DNA from: a virus
Strand: one strand, 5' to 3'
Virus record (IMG/VR): IMGVR_UViG_3300003690_000017
Span: 1 to 58,803 of that record
DNA: 58,803 nt
The notes under the pieces were generated by a model. It was not told where the DNA came from and did no database searches. It worked only from the letters and a program-made list of their open reading frames with translations. Within the stretch, counting starts at the first letter, position 1. Every line of letters starts with the position of its first letter. Of the stretch, positions 1 through 56,676 are shown in pieces. A program made the position numbers and the translations under genes.

Positions 1-776
1 GGAGGCTCCAAGGGGGTGTGGGACCGTCCCTATTACCATAAGTTCTTGGCCCCAGTCCGAATTTGCGTACCAATTTCAAATTATTCGATTTCGGGGCAAC
101 AAGCCGGTCACTCCCTGAAATTTTCGCACCAAATTTCCGTATATCCGGTTGACATAACTACGCGACCGAAGCGACGGAAGGACTCCTTGCTGACACAATT
201 AGTGGCCCAAAAGGTCGCAGATCACCGCCCTCCGTCCCTGTGGCGGGACAAAAGTAGAGTCAAGATTTGGTTGACAGGCTCCCGTGCTGACATCGTGTCA
301 GCGCACTGACACAACTTGTTGTAGGGCATACGACCTACACGATATTTACGACCTTTGGTGTCGTTTTGACCGCACAAGCCAAAACGCTCTGCATCGTGGT
401 GGGTCCCGGGGCACCCCTCGCTATTTAAGCGCGGCGACGGGCGTCCGAAGGACGTTCGCACGACGCCGTGCGCTCATTTGCAATCATTTGACAACAACAT
501 TAAAATTCAGGCTCGTTTGCGGGAGGGGAGGTAGGAGGGCGGAAAGGTTGACGAAAAACAGACCCGCCGCTGCACAAAACTCCTTCGGATGCTGGCGGCG
601 GGGGAGGGAAGGGGAGCGGAGGCGGGGATCGAACGCGCGCGCGAGGATTTTGCCCTAGTTGCAGCGACGGAACGACGTGGTAGGGTGGCGGCCTATGCAG
701 GGTGGCCCTTCGACCCTTGGGTATATTAGGCGGCACAGGCGGTGCCGAAACCCTGCCCCATGCAAAGGAGTTTGCC
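1..776. promoter_or_regulatory. Non-coding left control region
   Basis: No convincing gene lies here; open frames have poor composition and no ribosome binding site. Three perfect TTGACA hexamers occur on the + strand (149-154, 271-276, 488-493), but none has a clear TATAAT-like box 16-18 nt downstream. Inverted repeats include GCTGACA-TCG-TGTCAGC (286-302) and CGTTTTG/CAAAACG (362-368, 380-386). Two imperfect direct repeats lie at about 61-83 and 120-145. The octamer TGCTGACA occurs at 188 and 285. Together this looks like an early promoter/operator region. If the genome is circular or circularly permuted, it joins the iteron-bearing right end into one non-coding region of about 1.1 kb. Confidence 0.5.
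286..302. promoter_or_regulatory. Perfect 7-bp inverted repeat (possible operator)
   Basis: GCTGACA, a 3-nt TCG spacer, then TGTCAGC. The left arm is part of a TGCTGACA octamer, and a TTGACA hexamer ends ten bases upstream. It is the only place where two copies of the octamer core face each other, so a dimeric protein could bind here. This is inference from symmetry only. Confidence 0.35.
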
Positions 777-1331
777 ATGAGATTTGCCCGCATCGCGCTG
801 AGGGTGCTTGACGTTATCGTGACCGCTTGCTGGGAAGCCGGAAGGGGCTTTGAGGCGAGGCGCTGGACTGCGGGGGCGGTTCTGGCAATCCTATTTGTAG
901 CCCTGCCAGTCACGCTATCTGCTGACCACAAAACGGTGCCCTATTCCGCATGGGTCACCGCGTCGGCATATGGCCCGTGCTGCTACGCCGGGAGCGAGGG
1001 CGCGGGAAGCATTACCTATGATGGGCGCAATTGGCACGGACTCGATCCGTGGGAGTCGAGCATTGCCAGTCCGTACCTGCCACGGGGGACGGGAATTTGC
1101 ATCGCTGTGCCGAGCCTGAATGTCCTGCGCTGCGACCGCCCTGCCGATGCCGACGGCCTGACCCGCTCGCGTCTGACGATCAGCGACCATCTGCCCGCCT
1201 ACCACAATCGCGGCCTTGACCTGTCAGTGGGCTTCCTGCGCGACATAGATTTCTGCGAGGGCGGCCAGACTGACATGGCCTGCGCCCGCTCGTGGGGAGT
1301 TCGCACGGTCAGGCTGTTCGTGTTCGGATGA
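777..1331 (+). CDS. RlpA-like double-psi beta-barrel protein, membrane-anchored
   Basis: 184 aa. The start at 777 is chosen because AAAGGAG sits 8 nt upstream. A hydrophobic segment at about residues 31-48 acts as signal or anchor and is followed by an extracytoplasmic domain. That domain resembles the barwin/RlpA fold: an early VTASAYGP block, the tract ISDHLPAYHNRGLDLS (compare the NDRGP...DLS core of RlpA) and a C-terminal VRTVRLFVFG strand. RlpA-family proteins cleave or bind peptidoglycan. A role in cell-wall entry or lysis is inferred. It has several cysteines and may form disulfides. The canonical RlpA catalytic Asp context is only partly recognisable, so enzymatic activity is uncertain. 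Confidence 0.5.
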   Translation: MRFARIALRVLDVIVTACWEAGRGFEARRWTAGAVLAILFVALPVTLSADHKTVPYSAWVTASAYGPCCYAGSEGAGSITYDGRNWHGLDPWESSIASPYLPRGTGICIAVPSLNVLRCDRPADADGLTRSRLTISDHLPAYHNRGLDLSVGFLRDIDFCEGGQTDMACARSWGVRTVRLFVFG

Positions 1332-1372
1332 GCGACCTCGAACGCGAGCTTAAGGCCGAATTCGCTCTGTGA
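1328..1372 (+). CDS. 14-codon mini-ORF coupled to both neighbours
   Basis: Encodes MSDLERELKAEFAL. Its ATG overlaps the stop of the RlpA-like gene (ATGA), and its stop overlaps the GTG start of the next gene (GTGA). It may be a translational coupler. Alternatively it is the true N-terminus of the downstream protein joined by a frameshift, because its amphipathic helix would run straight into the next protein. Existence as a protein is uncertain. Confidence 0.3.
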   Translation: MSDLERELKAEFAL

Positions 1373-1563
1373 AGAAGAACGGTCTGGCCGAGCTGGGGTC
1401 GGAGTGTTACATCCGGCGGCTGCGGGACATCGAGGGTCTGGCGGACGGCGTGGCGGCGGACCTCTGGCGTGACGTTGGCAAAGTTCACAAATGGCGTGGC
1501 GCGGCGCTCACCATCCGAAATAAAGCCGCAAAGCTGAGAAAGCAGATAGCGACCCCAGAATAG
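1369..1563 (+). CDS. Small basic helical protein, unknown
   Basis: 64 aa from a GTG start that overlaps the TGA of the preceding 14-codon ORF. The sequence is charged and helical with a Lys/Arg-rich C-terminus. There is no signal peptide or membrane segment, and I recognise no family. It lies directly after the RlpA-like gene in an overlapping chain, so it may serve the same wall-related function. A GC-rich imperfect hairpin (about 1583-1620) follows it. Confidence 0.45.
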   Translation: MKKNGLAELGSECYIRRLRDIEGLADGVAADLWRDVGKVHKWRGAALTIRNKAAKLRKQIATPE

Positions 1564-1771
1564 GTAGTCAGACACACCCTCCCCGGGGCGTTCTGCTGCC
1601 CTAGAATGAACCGCCCGGGGCGTCCTTTGATGTAGTGGCGACCCCGGGCACCTTGCTGCCGTTGGCGGGTTATGATGGTCTGGGCCGGGGCTGGACTACT
1701 CAAAATCGCTTTAATCGCGGTGGCGCATAGGTTCTCCCTAAGGTCCCGGCCCACCAACAAGAAGGGGTGCC

Positions 1772-1963
1772 ATGAAACTGAAACGCAGGTCGCTGCTCAA
1801 GCGCCTGATCGTCCTCCTCCCGTTCATGACTGCCGCCACGGCCTGCGGCGAAGCCACGAAGCCGGGACCCAATGTCGAGGGCGATGACCCGAACCACCTG
1901 AAGGACTACTGGCGGCGGAACGATGACGCAAACGCCCTTGCCGCCACGAAATGGTTGAGGTAG
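1772..1963 (+). CDS. Putative small lipoprotein
   Basis: 63 aa; GAAGGGG lies 5 nt upstream of the ATG. The N-terminus is basic (MKLKRRSLLKR), then hydrophobic (LIVLLPFMTAATA), then Cys25, the classical layout of a type II signal peptide, although the lipobox ATAC is not ideal. The mature part is short, polar and charged. Size and topology recall outer-membrane spanin subunits or small superinfection-exclusion lipoproteins, but no embedded inner spanin gene is seen. An isolated gene with more than 200 nt of non-coding DNA on either side. Confidence 0.5.
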   Translation: MKLKRRSLLKRLIVLLPFMTAATACGEATKPGPNVEGDDPNHLKDYWRRNDDANALAATKWLR

Positions 1964-2180: not shown

Positions 2181-2212
2181 CGGCTCTGCTCCATCACTTA
2201 GGAGCGTGTGGT

Positions 2213-2479: not shown

Positions 2480-2483
2480 CCAT

Positions 2484-2543: not shown

Positions 2544-2819
2544 ATGAACCTGAACTACCACCGACGCAAAACCTACGAGGATGGCCTCTCGAACGCGTGG
2601 GTGAACCCCGACTGGGTGCGTGGCCTTCCGCCTTACCGGGGTCACTGGCGCGTCCCGCAGCAGGTAGTGTGGCGCTACAGCGAAGGCAACCGGCACCTGC
2701 TGCCGTGGTGGTGGCGGCCGGTGGCGGCGATGGTCGGACTCGGTGTGCTGGCCTTCGTGGTGCTCGCGGGCATGGTGCTGACAATCGGGTGGATGATATC
2801 GAACGCAGGAGGTGCCTGA
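2544..2819 (+). CDS. Single-pass membrane protein
   Basis: 91 aa, with AGGAGGT ideally spaced upstream. A Tyr/Arg/Trp-rich cytoplasmic part of about 60 residues ends in PWWWRP and is followed by a C-terminal transmembrane helix (about residues 62-86). Its stop overlaps the start of the next membrane protein gene. The pairing of a one-helix and a two-helix membrane protein suggests a holin/antiholin-like or membrane-remodelling pair, but no family is recognised. Confidence 0.5.
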   Translation: MNLNYHRRKTYEDGLSNAWVNPDWVRGLPPYRGHWRVPQQVVWRYSEGNRHLLPWWWRPVAAMVGLGVLAFVVLAGMVLTIGWMISNAGGA

Positions 2820-3196: not shown

Positions 3197-3423
3197 GCGA
3201 AGGTGGACACACGAAACGCTGGGCACGATGCGAGGCCGTTATGTCGATCCTGAAAACTGCGCGACCGTATGGCCTCACAGCCGCGCAGATTGCCGCCCGC
3301 AACGGCGGCAGCAAGGCGGTCATACAGCGGGCACTGACCGACCTGAGCAAGGAGGGCCGCGTGTGGAAGCTGGTGGGTGAGAAGCGCGACGGGGGCGAGC
3401 TTTGGGCGGCGAACGATGCCTGA
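3193..3423 (+). CDS. Winged-helix DNA-binding protein 1
   Basis: 76 aa; the start overlaps the previous stop (ATGA). The centre shows a helix-turn-helix (LTAAQIAARNGGSKAVIQRA) followed by LTDLSKEGRVWKLV, the recognition-helix and wing pattern of small winged-helix regulators. A role in regulating early transcription is inferred. It is immediately followed by a second winged-helix gene with a similar plan, so the two may be diverged duplicates or act together. Confidence 0.6.
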   Translation: MSEGGHTKRWARCEAVMSILKTARPYGLTAAQIAARNGGSKAVIQRALTDLSKEGRVWKLVGEKRDGGELWAANDA

Positions 3424-4119: not shown

Positions 4120-4134
4120 CCCTCAACTGAGGGA

Positions 4135-4209: not shown

Positions 4210-4329
4210 CGGTGCTGACACAACTATCGGGCGTCAGGCAGCAGCATTTGGGAGCGCAGGCGTTTCACCGAGCGCTTACGCAGCAGCCCCAAATCAGGGG
4301 CCTCGTCCCCTCCCTCAACGCCGGGCCAG

Positions 4330-6541: not shown

Positions 6542-7970
6542 GGTCTTTTTCGTCAGCCCGCCCGACCACGCGAAGACCTCGTATGCCAGCGTCGCATTCC
6601 CCCTCTGGTACATGGGGCGCTTCCCCGGCGACGCGATCGCTCTGGTTTCCAACACCGACGAGCTTGCCAAGAAATTCCTTGGGGGCATTTCCGCCACGGT
6701 GCGCTGGAACGAAATCTACAAGCAGGTCTTCCCCCATATTGAGCCGGACCTCGAACGCCGCTGGAACGTCAACGAAATCTATATCAAGCGCGGTCACCGC
6801 GAGCGGCCTGACCCGACCATTTCCGCCATCGGCTTGGGTGGGGCCATCATCGGTCGCCGCCTCGACCTCATCATCGTGGACGACCCGATCAATGAGAAGC
6901 TCGCTCAGTCCGACACTGAAATGGAGCGCATGAAGCTGTGGTTCAAGCGCACGCTCCTATCCCGGTTGAAGCCCAACGGCATCATCCTCGTCATCATGAC
7001 CCGCTGGAGCCTGAACGATCTCGGCGAAGACCTGCTCGATCCGGCCATGCGCTTCCAGCTAATGCACATGAAGGCTCTTGCCGACGACGACAGCAAGCGG
7101 GTCGTCTGGTATCAGCACGATGCTGACACTGGCGGCCTTGCCGAAGGGGGCCTGATTCACGAGAACGGCCCCGCTCTCTGGCCGGAGCGCTACCCGGCTG
7201 CCAGCACGAATCCCGACATCGAGACGCTGGAAACGCGCCGGGATCAGGTCGGAAACTTCATCTGGTCGGCCATGTATCAGGGCGAGCCGATGTCAGGCGA
7301 ACACACCGTCTTTCAGGAATCCGACTTCCGGTACTACTGTGCCGTCTGCGGCCTACGCGGGGGCCACCAGACGATGTGTACCTGCCCGCCCGCGAGCGAC
7401 GAGGAAATCGCCGACTACGCTGACCGGGAGAACTGGCGGCGCTTCCAAGCGGTGGACCCGGCAATGACCGAGCGCACGCGTTCCGACTACACGGCGATTG
7501 TCACCGCCGGGGTGGATACGAACCAGAACATCTTCCTGATGAACTGTAATCGGCGTCAGACTGCCAGTCCGGCGGCGCTCATCACCTACGAGCACGAGCA
7601 CTGGTTCCCGATTCAGGCCATCGGCATTGAGAAGGCAGGTTGGCAGACGGACCTGATAAGGGAAATTCGCTCCACCACGCTCCTGCCGCTGCGTTCGATG
7701 GCACCCGATGCTGACAAGCGGACTCGCGCCCTCTCCCACGCGACCAACTACGAAAACCACAAGGTCTATCACCCGAAACGCGCCCGCTGGCTCGGCGACT
7801 TCGAGCGCGAGCACATCGCCTTTACCGGGGCGAAGAACGCGCCGGGGCATGATGACATGGTGGACGCGAATGTCTACCTCGGGCGGCTCGTGTCGCAACA
7901 CCGGCAAAAGATGCAGGGGAAGCCAGCCCGCTACCTGAAGACGCAAGTCAGGCCGACCATTGCCTACTAA
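6384..7970 (+). CDS. terL: Terminase large subunit
   Basis: 528 aa from the ATG at 6384, which has GGTGGAGG 6 nt upstream; earlier in-frame ATGs lack one. The protein packages DNA into the prohead. The ATPase domain shows Walker A (SPPDHAKT, about residue 57), Walker B (LDLIIVDDP, about 160) and the coupling motif IMTRWSLNDLGEDLL (about 204). The RNase-H-like nuclease shows AVDPAMTERTRSDYTA (about 355) and the C-terminal acidic motif PGHDDMVDAN (about 488). A cysteine cluster (CAVCGLRGGH...CTCPP) between the domains may bind zinc. Full length; all key motifs are present. Confidence 0.93.
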   Translation: MALARKRFAAFCETTLETEDGQPMRPDRHHRVWTDKLQEAVERKEAGVPGQSRVFFVSPPDHAKTSYASVAFPLWYMGRFPGDAIALVSNTDELAKKFLGGISATVRWNEIYKQVFPHIEPDLERRWNVNEIYIKRGHRERPDPTISAIGLGGAIIGRRLDLIIVDDPINEKLAQSDTEMERMKLWFKRTLLSRLKPNGIILVIMTRWSLNDLGEDLLDPAMRFQLMHMKALADDDSKRVVWYQHDADTGGLAEGGLIHENGPALWPERYPAASTNPDIETLETRRDQVGNFIWSAMYQGEPMSGEHTVFQESDFRYYCAVCGLRGGHQTMCTCPPASDEEIADYADRENWRRFQAVDPAMTERTRSDYTAIVTAGVDTNQNIFLMNCNRRQTASPAALITYEHEHWFPIQAIGIEKAGWQTDLIREIRSTTLLPLRSMAPDADKRTRALSHATNYENHKVYHPKRARWLGDFEREHIAFTGAKNAPGHDDMVDANVYLGRLVSQHRQKMQGKPARYLKTQVRPTIAY

Positions 7971-8775: not shown

Positions 8776-10845
8776 TTGGCATCCTCACCCGACACATGGG
8801 AAGAAACTGAAGCTGTAATCAACAGCCTCAGATCGTTCTACGCGCCGCAGGTGGCGCAGATGAACGTGGCGATGAGCCTCTACAACCTAGAGATTACGTT
8901 CGCCACCAGCCCGGACATTGACCAGCTAATACCCCCGACTGCCTCCGATATTGTGCGCGATGTTCAGGACCGCATAGCGGGCAACTATCCGATCATCCGC
9001 TGTATCCCCAGAGGGGAGCGGACGCAGGACCGGGAGCAGGCGGAGATTCTCGCCCAGTTCCTCGACATCTACATGCAGCGAGTTCCGCTCAACCCGGCGG
9101 AGCTTCGCATGGACTACGGGATCAAGCAGCTTCTCTCTGACATGGTGTTCGATGGCCTCGTGCGCGGGCGCTGGTGCCTGAAGGTCATCTTCAACCCCAA
9201 CGGCTGGCCGGAGGAGCCGGTGCTGCCAGAGCGCCCCGAGGCACTCGCGAGGGCGCTGGACGCCGGGGCAGACGTGAACGAGTGGATTGATACGCAGGCT
9301 GGCTATCTGGTCGATCGCTCCGATTACGACGAGAAGCACGCGAAGTGGGAGAAGGACACCGAGGGGGTCCTGCCGGTCCTGATTCAGCCGCGCGACCCCC
9401 GCTTCGTGATGCCAGCGCTGGACGGCACCTTCGTCATCGAGCAGTACGACACGACCGCCGACCAGATCATGGAGAATTGGCCGGACCTGAAGCTGCCCAT
9501 CGGCGAGAAGGGCGACACGCGCTACAAGAGCGCGCAGGACCGGGTGACATGGACTGAGGTTTGGGACAAGAAGCACAAGAAGTTCTACGCCGACCAAGAG
9601 GTCGCCCTCCCGAAGACCGAGCACCACCTTGGCTTCATCCCCTACGTGATCGACGGGCCGTTCAGGACTCCGCTCCGGCATTCCGGCTCGCGAGAATCTC
9701 AGGCGTTCGCATATGAGACTGTCTACAAAGGGATCGAATCCATGCTCAAGGCCGAGGCGGCCTTCACGACGTTGGCCGGTGTCATCACGCAGTACGAGGC
9801 GTTCGGTGAGCGGGCAGCCTTCGTGGAGTCACCCGAGGGCGTGGACATCAACTCCGGCCCGGACGCCCTGTCCATGTTCAGCGACAAGGACCGCTACGAG
9901 GTCCATCGCGGGACCGGCGTGCCGCCGCAACTGCTGGAAATGCTCAAGATGATAAAGGATCGGATCGGCGACGCCACGGGCACGTCGCTGCTGGGCGGGG
10001 GCGACGAGTCCGGGTACTCGCGGGCCATCCGGGCGCAGATCGCGAAACTCAAGGATCGGCGCTTGGAGCATGCGATGGAGCGCTCACTCGAACGCTCCTG
10101 CACCTTCGTCCTGAGGATCATCGAGAACGTCGTGAAGGGGCCGGTCTACCTCACCGGCTCCAACGAGGAAACCGATGTCACCCTGAAGGTCGGGCCAGCC
10201 GAAATCGGGGGGCATTCCTATCTAATTGACGTGACGCTGAATGCCGTGCTGCCAATTGATGAGGCCGCCCGCTTCAGCCTCGGCCAAGCCAAATACGATG
10301 CCGGGATCATCAGTGCTTACACGCTGGCTACCGAATACGGCGGCATCCGCAGGGTAGAGCACGAGCGCAAGATGCGGTTCCAAGAGGATGTCATCAACAG
10401 CGACATCATCAAGGCGTTCATCGAAAACGAGGTCGTGAAGGACCTCGGCCTCCCGGGCAGCCCGGAGATCCTCGACATCTACCAGCAGCTTGCTGACATG
10501 AAGCAGGGGCAGATAGCCCAGCAGATGGACCAGATGAAGCAGCAGTTGGCGGGTGCGCAGCAGCAACCCCAGCAAGGGCAGCAGGGCCAGCCCACCCCGC
10601 AACAGCCGCGTAACCCGTTCCCGGCCAGCCCGGGCGAGCAGCAGCAGCGCATCAACCAGTCTCAGGCTCCGACGCCGCCGTCTCCGCGCGGGGCACCGGC
10701 CATGCAACCGGCGCAGGGCCAGAAGCAACAGCGGACCCCGAAGCGAAACAGGCGGAACCGCAGACGCAGGCGACAGCGCTCTGGTACTGCCGCCGCTGCA
10801 CGCAGCCGTCCCGTATACAGCCCGCCTCCGGGCGCACCTTCATAA
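8776..10845 (+). CDS. Portal protein
   Basis: 689 aa from a TTG start directly after the preceding stop; AGGGG lies about 11 nt upstream. It forms the dodecameric DNA gate at the capsid vertex. The N-terminal two thirds show the alternating helix/strand pattern of portals (for example REQAEILAQFLDIYMQRVPL, then GLVRGRWCLKVIFNPNGWPEEPV, and later the LKDRRLEHAMERSLERSCTF helices). The final 150 residues are Gln/Pro-rich, then Arg-rich. Supported by order (terminase, portal, capsid) and size. The TTG start is less certain than the identity. Confidence 0.8.
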   Translation: MASSPDTWEETEAVINSLRSFYAPQVAQMNVAMSLYNLEITFATSPDIDQLIPPTASDIVRDVQDRIAGNYPIIRCIPRGERTQDREQAEILAQFLDIYMQRVPLNPAELRMDYGIKQLLSDMVFDGLVRGRWCLKVIFNPNGWPEEPVLPERPEALARALDAGADVNEWIDTQAGYLVDRSDYDEKHAKWEKDTEGVLPVLIQPRDPRFVMPALDGTFVIEQYDTTADQIMENWPDLKLPIGEKGDTRYKSAQDRVTWTEVWDKKHKKFYADQEVALPKTEHHLGFIPYVIDGPFRTPLRHSGSRESQAFAYETVYKGIESMLKAEAAFTTLAGVITQYEAFGERAAFVESPEGVDINSGPDALSMFSDKDRYEVHRGTGVPPQLLEMLKMIKDRIGDATGTSLLGGGDESGYSRAIRAQIAKLKDRRLEHAMERSLERSCTFVLRIIENVVKGPVYLTGSNEETDVTLKVGPAEIGGHSYLIDVTLNAVLPIDEAARFSLGQAKYDAGIISAYTLATEYGGIRRVEHERKMRFQEDVINSDIIKAFIENEVVKDLGLPGSPEILDIYQQLADMKQGQIAQQMDQMKQQLAGAQQQPQQGQQGQPTPQQPRNPFPASPGEQQQRINQSQAPTPPSPRGAPAMQPAQGQKQQRTPKRNRRNRRRRRQRSGTAAAARSRPVYSPPPGAPS

Positions 10846-10857: not shown

Positions 10858-13800
10858 ATGGCTCGCAAGAAGACCCAGCAGAAGATTGTCGCCGCCATTG
10901 AGGGTGCCCGTGAGGGCGCTGCCGGAGAGATCGGCAGGATCGTGGCGGATATGACCGGCAAGAAAACCAAGGGGCGTAGTGGAATGGGCGGTGGGTATAC
11001 CCAGCCCATCCCCGGTGAAAAGCTGCCACCAGAGCCGCCGCCGTTCAAGAGGCGCAAGAGGCCCCCTAGAGCATTCCCCCCGAGGCCGTGGCCGCGCTCA
11101 GTCCAGCCCGCCGCCCCACCGACTGGCATCGACCCGCAGGGCGCACCGGAATACCGCCCCTACCAGCCGGGGTATCACCCGATGCCGGGCGATCCCTCCA
11201 GCGACGTGCGGGCTCCTGCGTGGGAGTCGCCCAACGTAAGGGGCTTTGGCAGGAGCCGGGCCATTACGCCGGGATACGAGGATAATCAGACTCAGAGGTA
11301 TGCCCACCCGATGCCGGGCGATCCCTCCAGCGACGCGAGGCATAGGCGTAGCGGCCTTCAGGGCCTCCGGGATGCTTGGCCGGGTGGCCTCGGCTTGGAG
11401 AGGGGCCGGGATGCCGACTGGCCGTTTAGCGGCGGTGGTGGTGGACGCGGCAACGCTGGGGACCACTACTCGTCCTTTGGCCCCAAGCCGGTGCCCTCGT
11501 TCTTCCCGGGCGTGGGTGGGCACGGCGGTGAGGCGGAGGACATCTTTCGCCAGCGCCAAGAGCAGATGGGCACGTCTGCGGCTGATATTCAGTGGATCAT
11601 CGACCACCCCGCAGACTTCCCCGATGCCGTCTCAGGCGCAGCTGCAAAGGAAAAGGATCGTCCGGGTGGCGCGTTCTACTCCTCAGCCACGGTAGACAGT
11701 CCAGACCAAGCGCCTGTTACCGAGGCAGCGTCCACCCCGGACGATACACCGCCCCCTGCCGACGAGGAAGCCGACGAGGACGCTTCGGCCTCGCTGCCCG
11801 ATTTTGTCAGCACCGACACGGGCATCCAGTTAGACGCGATGCCCGTTTCAGCAGCAGGCACCGACGTTCCCGACGACGCCTACAGCCTCGTAAGAGGCGA
11901 GCGGGACCCGGGCAGCGGCCAAGAGTACGAGGCGTGGCAAAACCCAACTGGCGACTGGTTCCGCCGCTGGATGGGCCAAGACGCACCACCTCCGCCAGCG
12001 GCAGCAGTAGACCCGAACGTGCCCGCCGAAGGCGAGTACGACTTCGATGTGACCGGCGCTGGGTATACGGACGCCGAGTTACTCGCTGCACAGGCGGGCA
12101 AACACCTGTCAGGGGAATCCCGGTCGTCAACCGGGGCCAGTGAAACCAACTACCGAGTCGTCAAGAGCGACGGCACTTTCGGTGTCAACGCTGGCTGGCT
12201 CCGCGCTCGTCAAAGGGAGGCTGCCGAGTTGGGCATCGACACTAGCGGCTGGAACTGGGTCGATATGCACCCGCAGTCGATTCAGGACATGATTAACAAC
12301 AGGCGCGGGCATTTACCCGGCGGGGCGTACGGGACTCAGACCCCGGTAGACCTCCAAGGCCCGGCACCGGCACCCCCATCACCGCCCCGTCCGGTAGCAG
12401 TAGGTTCGCCACCACCGGATGGCAATGAGCAGTCCCTCCTAGCCATCAGGACCATGCTTGAGCAACTCATGGCGAATCAGCAGCCTGAGCCGACGCAGCC
12501 TTGGAACCCGGCCACCGGCCCAGCGCAGGGGTACGACCCCGGCTTCGCTCAGTCGGGATTACCGAAGAACTACGCGACGATGTGGAACACACCGATGGCA
12601 GGCTCCACGATGGCTCCGGGGTCGCCGTGGCGCACGGATACGAGCCTTCAGGTGCTCCCGCAGGTGCAGTCGGAAAAGGCGGGCTCATACTATGCGCATC
12701 CCCGCGCCGTCTCCCCCGGTCAGTGGACATCCCCGGTAGTTGGTGGGCATCCCCAGATGACGCCCGGGAGGCTCACTCAATATCTCGATCAGTTCCGACC
12801 GTCAGATACGTACGAGCCTACGTTGGGGTCCTACTACAGCCAGTTCGCAAATCCCGACTCGCAGGCGGCGGGCGGCGCAGGCGGCCACATGCAGGGCACA
12901 GGCGGCTACATGCAGGGCGCAGGCGGCTACATGCAGGGCGCGGGCGAGTCGAGGTTCGCACCGCCCGGGTACATGGGCGGTGGAATGGGCGGCGATGGCG
13001 AAGAGAACGGCTATGGCGGCGGGAAAGGGCAGGGGCCGTTCGACGCTCAGGGCGGCATCGACGCCTTCGTGACCGCGCTAGGGGAGATCATCTCAAACAT
13101 CGGAGACGAGGAAGTGCAGCGGGCGGCATGGGCGATGCTCGCGCAGTCTGCCAGCGGCGACTTTGCCAGCCTCATAACGGGCATGTACGGACTCACTGGG
13201 CAACTGTATGCGGTGGACCGGCAGGCGGCCCTAGCGATGGAAGGACTCACCCAGCAAGCAGGGCAATTTGCAGCCGGGCTGGGACTCGACATCTTCGGTC
13301 AGCAGCAGGCCGGAGCGATCAGCGGCTACCAGTCGGAAACCGCGCGCATGGGCGTGGCCGGGCAGCTACAGGCGATCGCGGCGGAGCTTGGCATGGGCGC
13401 GACGATTGAGGCAGCCATAGCGGATCAGGACTACGACATAGCGGCCCGCCAGATTCAGGCAGCCATCGAGCAAATCTACTCGCAGGAGCGCCTCGGGCTG
13501 ACACAGATCGACTCCAGTACCCGAATCGCGATGACAAACGCGTACAACACGGCGAGCCAGATTGAATCGAGCGAGCGTGTCAGCATGGCAAACGTGGGTA
13601 TGCAGGGAACCCTCGGCCTCGAAGGAATCGCGCAGAGCGAGCGCGGCAACCGCACCGGATTCATCGGTCAGGCGATGAACTCCCCCGGCGCGATGATCCC
13701 GGTGCTCAACGCCCTGCGGAACCCGGAAACCATGGGTGACTTCGACCCGTGGGCGATGGCTCGCACTACTCCTTGGGGGAACATGTATCAGGGCATCCCG

Positions 13801-25876: not shown

Positions 25877-25948
25877 TCTTGCTGACAACGATCCACTGGT
25901 TCAGGACTGTTTGGCCGATCACCAGCAGTAGTAGGCCGGGGAGTTGTC

Positions 25949-34576: not shown

Positions 34577-34609
34577 GTCGCTAGTATAGGCAAATGACGC
34601 CGCCGACGT

Positions 34610-35618: not shown

Positions 35619-35649
35619 TTACCACGGGTCGAACATGGAGGCATATCGA

Positions 35650-45662: not shown

Positions 45663-45694
45663 CGGACCGACGCGCCTAGAAAGGAGACGCACTT

Positions 45695-47815
45695 TTGCCC
45701 GGAATGACCGACATCGTAGACGCGTTACATGGCCGCAAGGAAGGCCGGTCGTTTCGGGGCGACTGCCCCGTCTGCGGCGCGAACGATTTTGTTATCACGC
45801 CACCGCGAGACTCGAACATAGTGAACCCGCTCGTCTATTGCTGGCACGGTTGCGCTGGCGAGGATGTGATACAGGCGCTCACCGAGCAGGGGCTATGGAC
45901 AACCGCCGAGCAGAACGGCACTGTCAGCAGAAAAAGAAGGGCCGTTGCCCCTGATACCTTCCCGCCCTCCGAGCATACATCCACGCACGCGAGCCAAAAG
46001 CCGGATGTCAGCAAGCCCCCCGCGGCGATCTACCAGTTCCGCTGGAACAACGGCGATGACCCGGTGGCCGAGAAGGGTAGGTGGGAGACGCCCGATGGGG
46101 CCAAGACATTCAGGTGGCGCGGCTACGGGAAGACGGATTGGAAGGGCCTGCCGAGGCCGCTCAAAGAGAAGGACGTACCGCTCTACCGGACAGAAGACCT
46201 TGAGAATCTCGCCGCTGATGTGCCCGTGTGGTTCGTAGAGGGAGAGAAGTGTGCGGATGCGCTGGTGGGGGCGGGTTACGCGGCTGTGAGCGCTGGCGGG
46301 GGCGCTGGGCAGAGCGAGTTCGGCGAGGGCCTGACGATCCTGCGCGACAGGGCGGTGATCCTGTGGCCGGACAACGACTCGGACGGTCGCAAGTTTATGC
46401 ACGAGGTCGCCAAGCAGATCGAGCCTCAGGTGTCGCAGCTTGAGATAGTGCGCCCGGTCGTCAGCAAGAAGGGCGATGCCGTGGATTTCCTCGCCGAGGG
46501 TGGGGATGTAGAAGAACTGGAAGTGGCACCTTACACGACGCAACCTACGGTTGAGGCGCTTGAGGGCGATGACAATTTCCGGTGCCGGATACCTCTGGCC
46601 GAAGGGGCCATCCTGATCGACGGGCGCGACATGCGTCAGAACCCACAACGGATCGACTGTGACTTCGTGACTCGCGTGTCAGCACCGGGTTCCAAGAAGG
46701 ACATCTTCTCGGGCCGACTCAATCTGCTCTCCCTCAGCAATCGGGAGCTTTACCGGCGTCAACTGGACGCGATGTTCGGGAAGGAATTTGGGTGGACCGC
46801 GCACATAAACATCGCGACCTCCATGATTCGGAACGCCTACCTGATGTCGGACGATGCCGTCCAGCTTGCTGATGTGGACCCGGTGGTGGCGCACAGGGGC
46901 TTCCTCGTCGCCCCGTTCCTCCCGGCGCACCAACCGTCGATCTTCTTCGGCGACGGTGAGGCCGGTAAGACCTTTCAGGCATACCTGCTCGCGCTCTGCG
47001 TCGCGCACAAAATGGCGTATCTGAAATTTGATGTGCCTGCCGAGCACGGCCGGGTCATGATCGTGGACTACGAGACGGACAAGGAAACCGCCAAGGTGCG
47101 CCTACTGCGCCTCCTGAAGGGCCTCTCGCTGGGCTGGCCGCAGGACCGGCTGATTTATTGGGGCGCGCGAGGCATCTCTCTGCCTGCACAGAAGGAGGCG
47201 ATCAAGCGGCGCGTGCTGGAGGACGATGTGCGCCTGCTCGTCATCGACAGCGCCGCCGCCGCCTGCGGGGAGCCGCGCAACGAGCAGGAGGTGCTCGCGT
47301 ACTTCAACGCTCTGGCGTACATCGGGGTGACCAGCCTGACAATCGCGCATGTGAGCCACGGCGACGGCACTCAGAGGCAACGGTACAAACCCTTCGGATC
47401 GGTCTTCTGGCACAACGCAGCCCGATCCACTTGGTACGTGACGCGGGTACAGGGTGGTGGTGCTGACATGGAAGTCGGCCTGATAAATCGCAAAATGTCG
47501 AACGGCCCGCGCCACAAGCCCCTCGCAGTCACGATGAAATTCGATGATTCGGACCCACTCGGGTCGATCAGGGTGGAGACGGCCAGCGGCGACGACGTGC
47601 CAGAGATTCGCAACGAGCTTCCACTTCCGCAGCGGTTCATGACCCTCTTGCGTGTCGGCGAGAGAGTCGGCCGCACGGAACCGCACACGACGGAAGAGTT
47701 GTGCGCGCAGTCGTGGGTTAGCGAGGACGCCGGGAAGCGTGTGCTTACTGGGCTGGAACGCAAGGGTGAGATTCATTCTGCGGGTGACGGCCTGTGGGAG
47801 TTGCCCGCGCCTTAG
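45695..47815 (+). CDS. Primase-helicase (zinc ribbon + Toprim + RecA-fold ATPase)
   Basis: 706 aa; a TTG start is preferred (AAAGGAG 9 nt upstream) over the ATG three codons later. Domains in order: primase zinc site CPVCGAND...CWHGC (about residues 24-55), Toprim-like VWFVEGEKCADAL and WPDNDSDGRKF (about 178-230), and a RepA/RecA-like ATPase with Walker A GDGEAGKT (about 417) and Walker B LLVIDSAAAA (about 512), then HVSHGD and a C-terminal winged helix. It would prime and unwind DNA at the fork. No DNA polymerase gene is present, so the host supplies it. Its stop overlaps that of a leftward gene (TTAG). Confidence 0.85.
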   Translation: MPGMTDIVDALHGRKEGRSFRGDCPVCGANDFVITPPRDSNIVNPLVYCWHGCAGEDVIQALTEQGLWTTAEQNGTVSRKRRAVAPDTFPPSEHTSTHASQKPDVSKPPAAIYQFRWNNGDDPVAEKGRWETPDGAKTFRWRGYGKTDWKGLPRPLKEKDVPLYRTEDLENLAADVPVWFVEGEKCADALVGAGYAAVSAGGGAGQSEFGEGLTILRDRAVILWPDNDSDGRKFMHEVAKQIEPQVSQLEIVRPVVSKKGDAVDFLAEGGDVEELEVAPYTTQPTVEALEGDDNFRCRIPLAEGAILIDGRDMRQNPQRIDCDFVTRVSAPGSKKDIFSGRLNLLSLSNRELYRRQLDAMFGKEFGWTAHINIATSMIRNAYLMSDDAVQLADVDPVVAHRGFLVAPFLPAHQPSIFFGDGEAGKTFQAYLLALCVAHKMAYLKFDVPAEHGRVMIVDYETDKETAKVRLLRLLKGLSLGWPQDRLIYWGARGISLPAQKEAIKRRVLEDDVRLLVIDSAAAACGEPRNEQEVLAYFNALAYIGVTSLTIAHVSHGDGTQRQRYKPFGSVFWHNAARSTWYVTRVQGGGADMEVGLINRKMSNGPRHKPLAVTMKFDDSDPLGSIRVETASGDDVPEIRNELPLPQRFMTLLRVGERVGRTEPHTTEELCAQSWVSEDAGKRVLTGLERKGEIHSAGDGLWELPAP

Positions 47816-49411: not shown

Positions 49412-51355
49412 TTACCCCCGCACCACTTCCGACGCTCGCCGCGCCTGCGCCACGTTGTAGAGGCTATTGATCGCCGAACCGATGTACCGCGGCAGGTCCT
49501 CAGCCTTGCGACAGTCGATGAACTCGTCGCCGAACATCTTCTGCATGGCCTCCACCGCGCCGCCGCCCAGCATGATGCCGACGCCAAGGATTTCGATCCC
49601 GTCGTTGCGGAGGCCACGCAACGACAAGGCGGCTTCTTCGGGATCACCCGGCTCGCCGTCGTGAATGACGATCAGCACCTTGACTGGCTCTGGCCGCTTC
49701 AGCAGCATAGCCCCGAGGTCGCAGCACACAGGGTTGACCCATGTGGTGCCCCTGCTGGGGCATCCGGCGATACGGGCCAGACCAGTTTCGTCGTCCAATT
49801 GCTCGTCGCCCGGCAGGATCATGTAGCGCTGTGCGAACGTATCCGCCATGTGCCAGATGCCAAACTCATTGCAAACGAGGTGCATCATCCCGAGCGCCCG
49901 TTTCGCCATTTCGATCTTGCCGAAGTCGTGCATGGAAGTTGATACGTCGAGCGCAAACCCGATCGCCAGCACCCCGCCGTCGGGTTCCGGCTGGCTCGGA
50001 GACAGGAAGGGTTTCTCGCCTTGCGTGCGGATCACTGCCCTCATGCTGACACGGCCACCGTACGCGCCATATTCACGCGGCAGGTGAATGACCGGCAACA
50101 GCAGGCGGTTCGCCAACTGATTCGCCAGCGGTCGGACTATTGCCTCCAGATCGGTCGGGTCTTGCGCATAAACCATGCGGTGCCCCCTGCCCGCATCCAA
50201 TTCGCCATCCCCCTTCTCCGGGTTCTGGACGGCTGTCGGGGCCGCTATCTCCGGCGGCATCTTGCCGTCGTATTCCTCGGGGTCCCAGCGCTGGTCAGCC
50301 GGGGGCGGGGGCTCGCCGGGGTCACCTGCCCTAGCGGAGTACGGGTTACCCGGCGTGGCGTCATCGTTGATGGGCGGCGCGGTCGGCATGTCCGCCCGAA
50401 CCGGCTTGCCGACACCCCCGCCCCCCTGTTTCGCGCCACCTTCCTCGTCGCCGTCTGCGTCGTCCTCGTCGGACCCGGAACCATCCCCGTCGCCGCCCGA
50501 GTCATCTTCGGAGTCACTATCTTCCTCGGAGTCGTCGTCGCCAGCGCCGCCGCCCTCCGATTCCTCCTCGCCCTCGCTACCTTCCTCGCCGCCTTCCTCG
50601 CCATCGGCATCCGGCGACTCTTCCTGCGCCCGCTCGAATAGCAGGGCGACGATTTCCTCAGCGAAGTCGCATACCTGCTCGGCGTTGTCAGCACGGTACG
50701 AGCGCTCTGCGATCTCGACTACTTGGTCCCGCAGGTCTACGAGATCGGGATGAAGCTCTATCGCGTCGAGCGTTGCGCGCTTGAGGTTCGCATCACCGGC
50801 CTTGTTCGCCAACTGCCTCAGGAGCAGATACCGCATGACGTTATCGACATCGAGGTCGCACAGGAGCGGATCGCGCGCGCCCAGCCCTTTAGCCTCGTGC
50901 TCGGCCCGCAGACCTCGCACGTTCTGCTCTGCCATGCTGGCAGCTAGTGTCCGCAGCGGTGGCTTCGTGAACGAGTACATCCCGCCCATCGCCCTTTCAA
51001 TGCGCTCATCCTCCAGCACATTGAACACCTGATGAGTGATGAAGGCCCGCTTATCGCCCGCATCAAAGCGTCTCGTGTCGTACCGCGTAAATCGAGCGTG
51101 CCCGACCTCGTGAACCATGACGCCCCGGGTGACGTTGAACTGATCCTGCGGCGTGTCCCCACGGCTCATGCCCCACACGACAGCCTCGGGCGAGACGTGG
51201 ACGATGCGGGCATGTTGATCGCATGCGCCGACGAACCCCGCCGCCTTGATTGTGTCGGGAACCGTGAACTCTATCCGGTAGCCGGAATTCCCGAGAAACG
51301 AGCGCCCATAGGATCGAAGCGACTCTCGAATTGACGGCCATTCATACCATTTCAT
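49412..51355 (-). CDS. CobT-like VWA protein with HExxH motif
   Basis: 647 aa from the ATG at 51355 (AAAGGAG upstream; overlaps the preceding TAA). N-terminal domain with MVHEVGHARF (HExxH near residue 80) and a helical EDERIERAMGG. The middle, about residues 270-340, is a very acidic Asp/Glu/Gly/Ser run. The C-terminal VWA domain has the MIDAS start ALDVSTSM (about 468). This layout matches CobT of the aerobic cobaltochelatase and CobT-like phage proteins, which partner with a CobS/MoxR AAA+ ATPase, here the gene two positions upstream. Probably a remodelling machine rather than true cobalt insertion, as no CobN is present. Confidence 0.8.
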   Translation of the reverse strand: MKWYEWPSIRESLRSYGRSFLGNSGYRIEFTVPDTIKAAGFVGACDQHARIVHVSPEAVVWGMSRGDTPQDQFNVTRGVMVHEVGHARFTRYDTRRFDAGDKRAFITHQVFNVLEDERIERAMGGMYSFTKPPLRTLAASMAEQNVRGLRAEHEAKGLGARDPLLCDLDVDNVMRYLLLRQLANKAGDANLKRATLDAIELHPDLVDLRDQVVEIAERSYRADNAEQVCDFAEEIVALLFERAQEESPDADGEEGGEEGSEGEEESEGGGAGDDDSEEDSDSEDDSGGDGDGSGSDEDDADGDEEGGAKQGGGGVGKPVRADMPTAPPINDDATPGNPYSARAGDPGEPPPPADQRWDPEEYDGKMPPEIAAPTAVQNPEKGDGELDAGRGHRMVYAQDPTDLEAIVRPLANQLANRLLLPVIHLPREYGAYGGRVSMRAVIRTQGEKPFLSPSQPEPDGGVLAIGFALDVSTSMHDFGKIEMAKRALGMMHLVCNEFGIWHMADTFAQRYMILPGDEQLDDETGLARIAGCPSRGTTWVNPVCCDLGAMLLKRPEPVKVLIVIHDGEPGDPEEAALSLRGLRNDGIEILGVGIMLGGGAVEAMQKMFGDEFIDCRKAEDLPRYIGSAINSLYNVAQARRASEVVRG

Positions 51356-51633: not shown

Positions 51634-51635
51634 GC

Positions 51636-53489
51636 TTACCGCGCCCCATCCGGGCGGTGGTTACGAATCAGTTGCCGCAGCGCATTCGCGCTGTCCGCAT
51701 TCACGCTCCCGGTCGCGTCCAAGCCAGCCACGTCGGGGAGCCACGTCATTTCAGCGGCGCTCTCGACGGCCTGCCCATACGGCGATCCATCCACGAGGCC
51801 CTTCAGGAGGCGGCGGTACATGACCACCTGCGCCCATGCGATCGTGCCTCGTGGGCTTATTGGGACCGGCAAGGACCGATTGGCGAACTGCGCTCGCGTC
51901 TCGACCGCCACGCCCACTATCCATCCGGCGATCTGCTCGTCAATGTCAGTGCGCCCAGTCAGGAGCTTGACTTCTTCGTCGCGAGGCAGGTACTCGAACG
52001 GCACTGTCACCGGGAAGCGGTCCAATAGCGCGGGGTCCACCGCGTTCGTACCGATGTATGCCTGCCCGACGTTCATCGCCATGAAGACCACGAACCCGGC
52101 TCCCGCTGCGACCTCGACGTTACCCTGCTGTGTCAGCACGATCGCGCCCCGTGATATTGCGCCAAGCAGCACATTCAGAGTTTTGCTGGGCATCCGGTTG
52201 GCCTCATCCACGAAGATCATCAGGCCATCCCGCATCGCCGTGGTGAGCGGTCCGTCCGCCCACTCGAAGCCCTTGGTGCCATCCTTCTCACTGATGGTCG
52301 GGATGAAGCCACCCAGCAGGTCGTCCGGCTGCATGGACTCGTGCCCCTCGACAGTGATGCCCGCTCCGATGTCGCGACCTTCCTTCACCTGAATGTACTC
52401 GCGGCACATGCGCATCACATTCAGGACGCAGATGGACTTGCCAGTCCCATGAGTGCCGACCGCTCGTGCGTGCAGGCCGTGCAGGCCCGCCATCATGAGT
52501 TGCCCGCTCTGTGGCCCCACAAACGGGGTATCAAGCGTGCCGACAACCGAGCCATCAACGTCAGCGATTGGGGCAAGCGATAGCACGCCCGTCTCCCGCC
52601 ACTCCTTGAGCTTCTCGGGGTCCGTGAACGCGACCGAGAGATTGGCGCTCGGTCGGTCCTCGGCGAACTGGCCCTCGTCCCAGTAGTTATGCCCGCTGCC
52701 GCTTACGTTGTCGTACTTCGGGAAGGTACGCTGCCATTCCTCCTGCCGGAAGATGTGCTGGCCGAGTGCGGCATTGTCCCCACTCGATGGGGGAATCGGA
52801 CTCAAGTCGCGGAACATCATCCAGAGCGTCAACTCCGTGACCACCTTGTTCACCATGATCCAGTTTGCCTCTGGCATGATGAAGTTCCTGATCGGTGGGC
52901 GCTCTTCCGCCACGTACGCTTCGAGCAGGTCGGCGTAGTGGTTCAGCACCTTCTCGCCGCGCTTGGGGGTCGCCAGCGCCCCGCACAGGGCTATCAGCGC
53001 GAGGTATTCCACCGGGTCCTTCCCGATCTTGTAGCCACGAATGCCCCAGCCCTGATACCCGCTTTGGTGGTAGCCAGAGTGTATCTGCGACAGGAACATC
53101 CGGTTGGTCACGTTCTTGCTGCGACCCGCCCAAGCATGGCGAGTCCGCATCTCTACGTGGGTGTACACGTCCACGCCGTATCCGTCGCCTGTGGAACTGG
53201 TCCGCACGTCCACGACCTGCCCGGTCAGGGCTGCAAACACCGCCTCCAGCACGGGCAGCGGAATCTGCGGCGCAAACGGTTCCGGGTCCACCCCATGGTC
53301 CGTGTTGTGTACCACGAGTCGCGTCGGCGTGTAGGTGTCGCCGCTAGGGTGCCGCCATTCCTGCCCCCATAGCGACTCGGGCAGGTGGAACTGGGGCTTC
53401 GCGCCCCCGGCAGAATGATCGGCCATCGTGGGACGCCTGAACAGCATGTCCGCGATGTACTCGTGCTGCGCAGCCTGACGAACAGCCAT
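51636..53489 (-). CDS. CobS/MoxR-like AAA+ ATPase
   Basis: 617 aa from the ATG at 53489 (GAGGG upstream); an ATG at 53543 is possible but its box is too close. The first 300 residues are a non-catalytic region. Then Walker A GTHGTGKS (about 346), Walker B LMIFVDEANRM (about 424), sensor 1 FMAMN and the Arg-finger region LLDRFPVTV. MoxR-family ATPases pair with VWA proteins, here the CobT-like protein downstream. The system may remodel host or phage protein complexes. A putative promoter lies about 160 nt upstream. Confidence 0.85.
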   Translation of the reverse strand: MAVRQAAQHEYIADMLFRRPTMADHSAGGAKPQFHLPESLWGQEWRHPSGDTYTPTRLVVHNTDHGVDPEPFAPQIPLPVLEAVFAALTGQVVDVRTSSTGDGYGVDVYTHVEMRTRHAWAGRSKNVTNRMFLSQIHSGYHQSGYQGWGIRGYKIGKDPVEYLALIALCGALATPKRGEKVLNHYADLLEAYVAEERPPIRNFIMPEANWIMVNKVVTELTLWMMFRDLSPIPPSSGDNAALGQHIFRQEEWQRTFPKYDNVSGSGHNYWDEGQFAEDRPSANLSVAFTDPEKLKEWRETGVLSLAPIADVDGSVVGTLDTPFVGPQSGQLMMAGLHGLHARAVGTHGTGKSICVLNVMRMCREYIQVKEGRDIGAGITVEGHESMQPDDLLGGFIPTISEKDGTKGFEWADGPLTTAMRDGLMIFVDEANRMPSKTLNVLLGAISRGAIVLTQQGNVEVAAGAGFVVFMAMNVGQAYIGTNAVDPALLDRFPVTVPFEYLPRDEEVKLLTGRTDIDEQIAGWIVGVAVETRAQFANRSLPVPISPRGTIAWAQVVMYRRLLKGLVDGSPYGQAVESAAEMTWLPDVAGLDATGSVNADSANALRQLIRNHRPDGAR

Positions 53490-53727: not shown

Positions 53728-54378
53728 TCAGCTACACCCGCCCTCCTTCCGTGCTGACATGGATGCGACTAGATCAGACATGATCGTCTCAACGCTTAGG
53801 TCCGGCTCCCCCATGCGCGTCCGTATCTGACGTAGGTGCGCTATGTCCTCGATCGCCTGATCGGTTTGGGTGATGAGGTCGGACCAGACCGTGGACGCCG
53901 ACGCGCACCCGCACTGGTCGTCGTACCTAACGCTCCATGCGTCCCGTTCCGATCCGGTTCCCCCATGCTCGGCCTCGAACTGCTTGAGGCTCTTGTAGTC
54001 GGCGTACTGCGTCGTGATGCGCCCGTCGCCCGTAGTGTCGAGCGCATCGGTCAGCTTCAGCGCGATCCACATGAAGTCGCGATACCCGTGCCAGCAGGCT
54101 GCGTTGACGCGCCGGTAACCATTGGCGGTATGGAGTGAGCCGCTGATTCGCTGGTACGCGAAGCGCTGATGCTCGGGGAACGCCATCCCTCGCACATTGA
54201 ACATGAGGTCGTCGAGAATCTCAACGCCCTTCGGCCTCGGCAGGCGCTTGTTGGGCGCGAGCGTGAACCTGAAGGCGGCACCCTTGACGCCAACGACCTT
54301 GATGCCATCGCGAGGCACCAGATTGGTCATGCTCAGGGCGCGCATGATGAACGGAGCCGGGATGCCGCGAAGGAGCAT
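53728..54378 (-). CDS. Hypothetical protein
   Basis: 216 aa from the ATG at 54378, overlapping the upstream stop (TAATG). It contains an alpha/beta core (IKVVGVKGAAFRFTLAPNKRL), GMAFPEHQRFAYQRISGSLH, and a helical C-terminus (DLITQTDQAIEDIAHLRQI) ending in a CS-rich tail. No family is recognised. Last gene of a chain of small leftward genes; a TGCTGACA octamer (53752) is inside its end. Confidence 0.5.
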   Translation of the reverse strand: MLLRGIPAPFIMRALSMTNLVPRDGIKVVGVKGAAFRFTLAPNKRLPRPKGVEILDDLMFNVRGMAFPEHQRFAYQRISGSLHTANGYRRVNAACWHGYRDFMWIALKLTDALDTTGDGRITTQYADYKSLKQFEAEHGGTGSERDAWSVRYDDQCGCASASTVWSDLITQTDQAIEDIAHLRQIRTRMGEPDLSVETIMSDLVASMSARKEGGCS

Positions 54379-55518: not shown

Positions 55519-55581
55519 AGGCAAACTCCTTTCTGTGCTTGTTGCCTGTGATGACAGCTTTGGGGCTGCCAAGGTGGACAG

Positions 55582-55609
55582 CCTAACAGCAGTCCACCGA
55601 ATCTGTCAA
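55582..55609 (-). promoter_or_regulatory. Putative promoter of the DUF2958 operon
   Basis: Minus strand TTGACA (55609-55604) with GTTAGG after 16 nt. It shares TTGACA and a GTTA core with the promoters at 25848 and 53650. It lies about 65 nt before the DUF2958 start. The rest of 55519-55684 is non-coding. Confidence 0.5.
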
Positions 55610-55684
55610 GGCTTCACTGTGAACCCTGAATGAATCTATATATGCGACACGCCTTGCGTGCTATGCGCTCAAGTGTGCGTCTGC

Positions 55685-55945
55685 TTACATGGGCGCTCCC
55701 CGTGCTGACACCACGATGCGCTCGTCATCGCCCACGCAGACGATCCCGGCCACCTCCTCCAGACCGTCGAAGGCTGACGCCACGAACGCCACGCGAAGCG
55801 GGGCGACTAGGTGAGTCCCGTCGGGCTGGGGGATCGCGACGAAGAGGGGCAAGCCATCGTCGTTCGGGAATGTCCTCAGCGCCTCACCGATCAAGTCCCG
55901 AAGGCCGTAGATCGGTTCGGTCGGGTCGGTCAGGTCAGTCATCAT
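55685..55945 (-). CDS. Small hypothetical protein
   Basis: 86 aa, with an ATG overlapping the upstream stop. Alternating beta and helix (LPLFVAIPQPDGTHLVAPL; DGLEEVAGIVCVGDDERIVV). No family is recognised. Carries one TGCTGACA octamer (55703) near its 3' end. Confidence 0.45.
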   Translation of the reverse strand: MMTDLTDPTEPIYGLRDLIGEALRTFPNDDGLPLFVAIPQPDGTHLVAPLRVAFVASAFDGLEEVAGIVCVGDDERIVVSARGAPM

Positions 55946-56223
55946 GAGCGCCCTGCGTTCGCGATCTTCTTCTGCGCCGACTTGATCGCCGCGATCATGA
56001 CATCGCCCTGCTCCACGTCTATGTACGCGGTGGCCTCGACCGCCTCGTACACGACGTTGGGGCGATCGTTTAGCTCGATCTCGTACCCGGGCATCACCAC
56101 GCGAAACACAATCTGGCGGAAGTCCATGCCGACAACCAGTTGCGCTTTGCGCCCGTGTCCACTGTTCTCGTCTATCTCGCGAGCAGGCATGCTGCTCAGT
56201 TCCTTGAAGCTCATGCTAGGCAT
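55942..56223 (-). CDS. Small hypothetical protein
   Basis: 93 aa from the ATG at 56223 (GGGGGG 5 nt upstream; overlaps the previous gene by 8 nt); an ATG at 56214 is also possible. The middle is beta-rich (RKAQLVVGMDFRQIVFRVVM) and the end a helix (DVMIAAIKSAQKKIANAG). No family is recognised. Confidence 0.45.
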   Translation of the reverse strand: MPSMSFKELSSMPAREIDENSGHGRKAQLVVGMDFRQIVFRVVMPGYEIELNDRPNVVYEAVEATAYIDVEQGDVMIAAIKSAQKKIANAGRS

Positions 56224-56464
56224 TTGTGCCCCCCTTTGGGCTGCGCGGGGTATCGTCCTCGACCATTTCGAGTTCACCCTCGTAAGAACACTGCTGTTGC
56301 GTGCATGACACACGCTCCTCTCCGGTGCGACCGCTGCTACTGTGATTCAGCGTGAACCCGTCGGAATACACCTTGGGCGCGTGGCCTATGGGCCAGAACA
56401 CAGTCGCGCTCGTGATGACAAGATCGCCACCACAGTCAGGGCATTCCGATTGGAACACCATCAT
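56216..56464 (-). CDS. Small zinc-ribbon protein
   Basis: 82 aa with AAAGGGGG upstream. CPDCGGDL near the N-terminus and SCTQQQCSYEG near the C-terminus form a C4 zinc ribbon; the loop between is about 40 residues. The acidic tail ends with MVEDDTPRSPK. Possibly binds nucleic acid or RNA polymerase; unproven. Confidence 0.55.
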   Translation of the reverse strand: MMVFQSECPDCGGDLVITSATVFWPIGHAPKVYSDGFTLNHSSSGRTGEERVSCTQQQCSYEGELEMVEDDTPRSPKGGTNA

Positions 56465-56676
56465 TGGCCCCCTTTATCTATGCGCGCCTCGCGGATACCA
56501 GCCATGCGTTCCTCGCGATCGTATGCACGATCAACCGGGTCGCGAGACTCCTGATACGCGGGGCAACTCAACTCGTGAGCGCCGTAGCGCGTTACGAACT
56601 GGGCCTCAGGCGTCATCGTGCTGACATAGCACGCGCACCGATAGTGAACCTGTCCAAGCTTCTCTAGCACGTTCAT
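56461..56676 (-). CDS. Small hypothetical protein
   Basis: 71 aa from the ATG at 56676 (GAGGAAGG upstream). It contains YRCACYVS and SCPAYQES, two Cys pairs that may bind metal, and a charged helix (DPVDRAYDREERMAGI). A TGCTGACA octamer (56619) lies in it. No family is recognised. Confidence 0.45.
   Translation of the reverse strand: MNVLEKLGQVHYRCACYVSTMTPEAQFVTRYGAHELSCPAYQESRDPVDRAYDREERMAGIREARIDKGGQ

Follow-up and report, generated by a model that had tools for sequence, protein, structure and literature searches.

What reads a DNA word of eight bases that recurs from one end of a phage genome to the other? The IMG/VR virus record IMGVR_UViG_3300003690_000017 (58,803 bases, classed as linear; analysed over its full length and called the window here) comes from a podovirus-like phage, judged from its capsid and terminase, and contains 34 copies of the octamer TGCTGACA, 25 on the plus strand and 9 on the minus strand (Table 1). 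An initial annotation, made from the sequence alone, had reported exactly these counts and positions and had offered several roles for the word. With a density of 0.58 per kb (578/Mb), or one copy per ~1.7 kb, TGCTGACA is the commonest octamer of the window.

Enrichment beyond composition and codon usage

Could base composition or codon usage alone produce such a count? Markov models of orders 1–4 predict 1.7–4.1 copies against the 34 seen, and when the motif is masked, orders 1 to 6 each predict ~2. The unmasked order-6 model expects 25 copies, which would favour an artefact of codon or dinucleotide usage, but unmasked expectations at higher orders are circular. Synonymous-codon shuffles predicted 1.0 in-gene copy and never gave more than 4 in 300 shuffles, against 30 seen. 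We also used a codon-aware test, in which the expectation for each octamer is computed with the proteins held fixed and codons drawn from the phage's own usage. TGCTGACA ranked first of all octamers, with 30 in-gene copies versus 1.02 expected (29-fold, log10P −32.6), while the next word, once octamers overlapping TGCTGACA were set aside, reached a log10P of only −4.8. The artefact is thus already refuted, and the over-representation claimed by the initial annotation stands.

The same is true of the codon bias that it had suggested looking for at Ala-Asp pairs: GCT makes up 12.6% of Ala codons overall, yet 18 of 39 in Ala-Asp-A contexts, and in 14 of these 18 cases a T precedes GCT. The 24 one-mismatch neighbours of TGCTGACA occur 0–7 times each on both strands together (mean 3.0). 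Because these neighbours sit near background, the core is strict at 8 bp.

Placement of the copies

Genes cover 89% of the window and contain 30 of the 34 copies, so that gene borders are ignored. The remaining four, previously described as intergenic, do fall outside gene calls; mechanical open reading frames (16-309 and 284-658) overlap those at 188 and 285. As had been noticed, the word is read in several ways: as Ala-Asp (14 copies) or Leu-Thr (5) in the gene sense, and across Val-Ser (7) or Ser-Ala (4) when antisense. Synonymous codons allow TGCTGACA at only 84 in-gene places, of which 30 (36%) are filled, with little difference between gene sense (19/52, 37%) and antisense (11/32, 34%). 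Both codon phases and both orientations are filled at 29–39% of permissive places, which bears out the proposal that the DNA word, and no single peptide, is under selection. Selection or drive on TGCTGACA at the DNA level is thus strongly supported. The proteins were hardly bent to fit the word: with shuffled amino acids, permissive places are almost as numerous (43 and 31).

Along the genome, the copies are uniformly distributed (Kolmogorov-Smirnov P 0.82) and more evenly spaced than chance would give (P 0.006; P 0.04 once the permissive places are allowed for). The skew towards the plus strand that had been reported holds as a count (25/9, P 0.009) but is due in part to where the proteins allow the word. 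Orientations are also clustered (9 runs versus 14.2 expected, P 0.02), a result that, like the skew itself, is only modestly significant. Minus copies do occupy the 11.8–16.0 kb interval where a flip had been described; they are not confined to it, since others lie at 33.3, 45.9–46.7, 50.7 and 52.1 kb. The flanks are soft, with the consensus YSNTGCTGACAH (YSN-core-H): a pyrimidine at −3 in 31/34 copies (P 4e-7), C or G at −2 in 32/34 (P 2e-5) and a base other than G at +8 in 32/34 (P 4e-4). The preference for a pyrimidine at −3 is absent from partial core matches, and no dyad partner follows the copies of the window. Because the copies are as many as the proteins allow, anywhere and in either orientation, the pattern points to a machine that scans the DNA or travels along it and not to a few addressed control sites; TGCTGACA thus probably marks the genome for an enzyme that reads DNA.

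Table 1. Copies of TGCTGACA and genes of possible relevance to its reading, in window coordinates.
Feature	Position	Strand	Context
TGCTGACA	188..195	+	intergenic, left end
TGCTGACA	285..292	+	intergenic, 2 bp before perfect hairpin GTGTCAGCGCACTGACAC (295-312)
TGCTGACA	2776..2783	+	gene 2544-2819, co-directional
TGCTGACA	4213..4220	+	intergenic
TGCTGACA	7121..7128	+	terminase large subunit gene
TGCTGACA	7709..7716	+	terminase large subunit gene
TGCTGACA	10491..10498	+	gene 8860-10845
TGCTGACA	11805..11812	-	antisense, gene 10858-14481
TGCTGACA	13578..13585	-	antisense, gene 10858-14481
TGCTGACA	16004..16011	-	antisense, gene 14482-19662
TGCTGACA	19409..19416	+	gene 14482-19662
TGCTGACA	19956..19963	+	gene 19663-25662
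TGCTGACA	20750..20757	+	gene 19663-25662
TGCTGACA	22734..22741	+	gene 19663-25662
TGCTGACA	25880..25887	+	intergenic
TGCTGACA	28175..28182	+	gene 28027-28800
TGCTGACA	30127..30134	+	glycosyltransferase gene 29687-32245
TGCTGACA	31513..31520	+	glycosyltransferase gene 29687-32245
TGCTGACA	32432..32439	+	radical SAM gene 32217-33524
TGCTGACA	33341..33348	-	antisense, radical SAM gene 32217-33524
TGCTGACA	35354..35361	+	gene 34938-35618
TGCTGACA	39085..39092	+	gene 37718-39667
TGCTGACA	44146..44153	+	RecE/YqaJ-like exonuclease gene
TGCTGACA	45317..45324	+	RecT-like gene
TGCTGACA	45922..45929	-	antisense, primase/helicase gene
TGCTGACA	46006..46013	-	antisense, primase/helicase gene
TGCTGACA	46677..46684	-	antisense, primase/helicase gene
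TGCTGACA	47461..47468	+	primase/helicase gene
TGCTGACA	50044..50051	+	antisense, minus gene 49412-51355
TGCTGACA	50686..50693	-	co-directional, minus gene 49412-51355
TGCTGACA	52131..52138	-	co-directional, CobS-like AAA gene 51636-53489
TGCTGACA	53752..53759	+	antisense, minus gene 53728-54378
TGCTGACA	55703..55710	+	antisense, minus gene 55685-55945
TGCTGACA	56619..56626	+	antisense, minus gene 56461-56676
Small winged-helix protein gene	3241..3423	+	PHROG 1368 (transcriptional regulator), E 2.5e-4; sub-threshold match to Pfam HTH_11
RecE-like (YqaJ) recombination exonuclease gene	43454..44491	+	PHROG 434, E 9e-67
RecT-like single-strand annealing protein gene	44496..45662	+	PHROG 148, E 1e-58
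Primase/helicase gene	45704..47815	+	PHROG 239, Pfam AAA_25; candidate reader under the replication hypothesis

Calibration on phages with known genome-wide words

We ran the same scripts on three phages with characterised words: P1, HP1 and tf. In P1, Chi (GCTGGTGG) ranked first with 50 copies (0.53/kb, 31/19 by strand), filling 36% of 119 permissive places at a 7-fold enrichment. In HP1, the Haemophilus uptake signal sequence (USS) AAGTGCGGT ranked first, on both strands at 0.53/kb, with 31% of permissive places filled, even spacing and soft flanks. In tf, the nick motif headed the 9-mers of the Markov scan, and in the codon test it was one of the two leading octamers; it fills 30% of permissive places and lies on one strand only (11/0). 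For most other phage contigs tested, top words reached log10P values of −4 to −8, the exceptions being repeat-rich contigs. A second candidate octamer, AGCTTATC, seen in a relative (L169), was at background level in the codon-aware test.

Because TGCTGACA lies on both strands, in genes and independently of transcription, the window groups with P1 Chi and the HP1 USS, and not with nick motifs or stoperators. The stoperators of cluster A mycobacteriophages resemble it as 20–30 asymmetric sites along a genome of 50–60 kb. Those sites, however, occupy short gaps between genes and are oriented with transcription (PMC9283540), whereas, in this comparison from the literature, the window has 30 of 34 copies in genes, 19 sense and 11 antisense, with an orientation that has no link to transcription. 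Chi in P1 has another sequence but shares with TGCTGACA a strict, non-palindromic octamer of first rank, present at ~0.5/kb on both strands with a mild skew, within genes and at the same 36% occupancy.

Relatives and other genomes

Is the word shared by related phages? The first 25 kb of the window have no near relative in the phage collection, and single-sequence scans of IMG/VR with the capsid, terminase and RecT proteins returned no close relative and one distant terminase match (26% identity). A search with an alignment of three capsid proteins yielded 546 distant relatives; the best 80 of these 546 (38–44% identity) lacked the enrichment, with 0–4 copies per locus and 0–9 per whole record. 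We also scanned the complete IMG/VR collection for two flanked copies roughly 530–560 bp apart; none of the 106 matches came from a genome in which the word is dispersed, and in G722 and G724 it is part of a longer dyad operator. Judging by how densely such pairs occur in the window, we estimate that an equally enriched genome would be caught with a 24% chance per scan; about a dozen such genomes at most are therefore likely in the collection searched, from which records very close to the window may be missing.

The candidates raised by the other scans were rejected. A first pair scan of IMG/VR, followed into whole records, gave chance pairs, protein repeats and one local operator-like cluster (L070); a pair scan of bacterial genomes gave chance matches and protein repeats; and a third scan gave, among the matches listed, mostly Ala-Asp repeat proteins, one further genome (G734) being at background.

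A possible Chi-like reading of the word

What kind of machine might read TGCTGACA? Of the roles proposed in the initial annotation, the one best matched by the comparison with Chi in P1 is a Chi-like site that a host recombinase would use, although no host was found. We favour this reading tentatively, at somewhat less than even confidence: TGCTGACA may be a Chi-like mark read by the helicase-nuclease of the host, with protection or recombination as its benefit. Entering the phage DNA at a double-strand end, a host enzyme akin to RecBCD, AddAB or AdnAB would recognise TGCTGACA in single-stranded form during translocation, and upon recognition stop degrading and load recombinase. A genome carrying the word every ~1.7 kb would then survive end degradation and recombine or concatemerise efficiently, and copies would build up wherever synonymous change can create them. 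A host-specific Chi-like word is the most economical account, and it would explain the lack of the word in relatives, which presumably infect other hosts. Precedents exist in the P1-like and virulent T5-like phages, where Chi over-representation is highest (PMC3784561).

Several observations weigh against a Chi-like mark. The 29-fold enrichment of TGCTGACA exceeds the 7-fold enrichment of Chi in P1. Soft flanks and even spacing are features of the window not seen for Chi in P1 and recall uptake sequences. Given the permissive places, the orientation preference is weak (plus 21/48 versus minus 9/36, P 0.11). The window, differing in this from P1, also carries RecE-like and RecT-like genes, which give the phage a means of its own to start recombination. 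Phages without recombinases are those reported to have the strongest Chi enrichment (PMC3784561), a correlate and not a definition of Chi. Finally, no enriched host emerged: in 678 sampled bacterial genomes TGCTGACA reached at most 121/Mb versus 578/Mb in the window, and in five bacterial genomes with high ratios it was at or below the Markov expectation in the pieces read. Chi itself has observed-to-expected ratios of only 2.3–2.4 in its hosts (E. coli, Salmonella; PMC3784561). Because a roughly 2-fold excess in the host suffices for Chi, the low counts in the 678 genomes argue against the presence of an uptake-type host among them but have no such force for a host of Chi type.

The genome with the maximum of 121/Mb (G583) was rejected as an enriched host, as TGCTGACA lies there inside a longer intergenic repeat resembling repetitive extragenic palindromes (REP). 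This genome (L359-L385, phylum of an actinomycete) has REP-like intergenic arrays of TGCTGAAATGCTGACAAGC and G+C hairpins, in hundreds of copies genome-wide.

Alternative readers

Could TGCTGACA instead be a binding site, spread genome-wide, for a phage or host DNA-binding protein such as a chromosome organiser, a repressor, or a replication or partition factor? The soft YSN-core-H flanks are of a kind found in protein-DNA sites, and the even spacing, the small winged-helix genes nearby and a CTGACA/TGTCAG cluster with a hairpin beside the copy at 285 are all in keeping with such a site, as is the finding that TGCTGACA forms half of a 20-bp dyad operator in the phages G722 and G724. However, the window copies have no dyad partner and disregard gene borders and the direction of transcription, and binding sites usually tolerate mismatches, whereas here the neighbours are at background. 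We consider a binding site unlikely on balance. The product of the small winged-helix gene (Table 1) is, speculatively, a candidate DNA-binding reader.

The cluster itself occupies the left non-coding end (150-312), where TTGACA units near 150 and 271 accompany the copies at 188 and 285 and the hairpin GTGTCAGCGCACTGACAC. CTGACA/TGTCAG units occur there 4 times in 150 bp (P 0.027), and this half-site cluster is possibly an operator or origin. CTGACA was rejected as a −35 box, since neither the copy at 188 nor that at 285 coincided with a promoter in a consensus scan of window positions 1-1100. The dyads of the two GC-rich phages, G722 (L494-L497) and G724 (L498-L499), are repeated 20-bp elements (TGCTGACACCAC.GGTGTAACA; TGCTGACATGTAnnACATTACA) and probably repressor operators.

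The reader might also be the phage's own, whether the primase/helicase, a factor for packaging or nicking, or a protein that organises the genome. TGCTGACA would then belong to an address system private to the phage and spanning its genome, for which no counterpart has been described. The left-end cluster with its hairpin, the primase/helicase and the small winged-helix protein leave room for such a reader, a prospect to which we give a low probability.

Alternatively, the word could be a DNA uptake sequence (USS, or DUS for DNA uptake sequence in other dialects) belonging to a host with natural competence and amassed by the phage in the way HP1 amassed the Haemophilus USS. Like such sequences, TGCTGACA combines a short, strict core with a high density on both strands, and the HP1 control shares its even spacing, soft flanks and similar fill. 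Known USS/DUS dialects read AAGTGCGGT, ACAAGCGGT and GCCGTCTGAA, and TGCTGACA matches none of them. An uptake word would require several hundred copies per Mb in the host, above the maximum in the 678 genomes. HP1 is a temperate phage of a host whose genome abounds in USS, whereas neither such a host nor a lysogeny gene was found for the window, no integrase or lysogeny gene being recognised among its genes. USS accumulation is published for temperate Pasteurellaceae phages, whereas the large, likely lytic phages of USS hosts are USS-poor (PMC6776037). An uptake word is, on these grounds, distinctly improbable.

We are no more inclined towards a replication or packaging signal for a phage enzyme, such as a primase start or a pac-like scanning site, or towards a functionless word produced by mutational drive. 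A spacing near 1.7 kb and the phage's own primase/helicase would suit the former. Known phage primases read ~3 bases, however, and enzymes of this kind would be inherited, yet no related phage shows TGCTGACA. Synonymous accumulation wherever allowed is also expected of neutral drive, but the neighbours are not depleted, so that no near-miss conversion is visible.

Least probable of the functional readings, with only a slight chance in our view, is a motif for site-specific nicking like those of phages tf, phiKMV and T5. Motif-associated nicks are published (PMC3517423, PMC11780129), and the tf motif TACTRTGMC is likewise a strict short word scattered through genes with a comparable share of permissive places filled. 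TGCTGACA is unrelated to it, and nick-motif sites are all on one strand in every group (PMC3517423; also PMC11780129), against 25/9 in the window, where opposite-strand copies occur within the same genes. Restriction avoidance was rejected as a cause, because it would deplete TGCTGACA and not enrich it.

Other features of the window

Inverted repeats form two perfect pairs (23 nt and 19 nt, 0.9–1.1 kb apart) that link the end of the RecT-like gene with the primase gene (45328-46441). A small VRR-NUC-like nuclease gene adjoins a gene with a weak HNH family match (48201-49408). A minus-strand pair (49412-53489) encodes a CobS-like AAA ATPase and an acidic protein that matches phrog_1576, a family of unknown function; the pair is possibly a MoxR/VWA-type or CobS/CobT-like system. 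The structural region contains, at 29687-36861, glycosyltransferases, an opposite-strand NAD-dependent epimerase and a B12-binding radical SAM protein. The right end (58610-58705) carries repeated TTCGATCCTCTCGATCC units, GATCC-rich direct repeats that are perhaps a terminal or packaging region.

Implications

To our knowledge, few Chi sequences are known outside model bacteria. If TGCTGACA is Chi-like, the signal that a host enzyme uses for recombination can be read from the genome of a phage alone, and the word could help to identify that host. The codon-aware occupancy test, validated on P1 Chi, the HP1 USS and the tf nick motif, could then be applied to further phage genomes to predict Chi, uptake and nick words without cultivation. 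Should the reader instead be encoded by the phage, TGCTGACA would represent a new kind of genome-wide signal.

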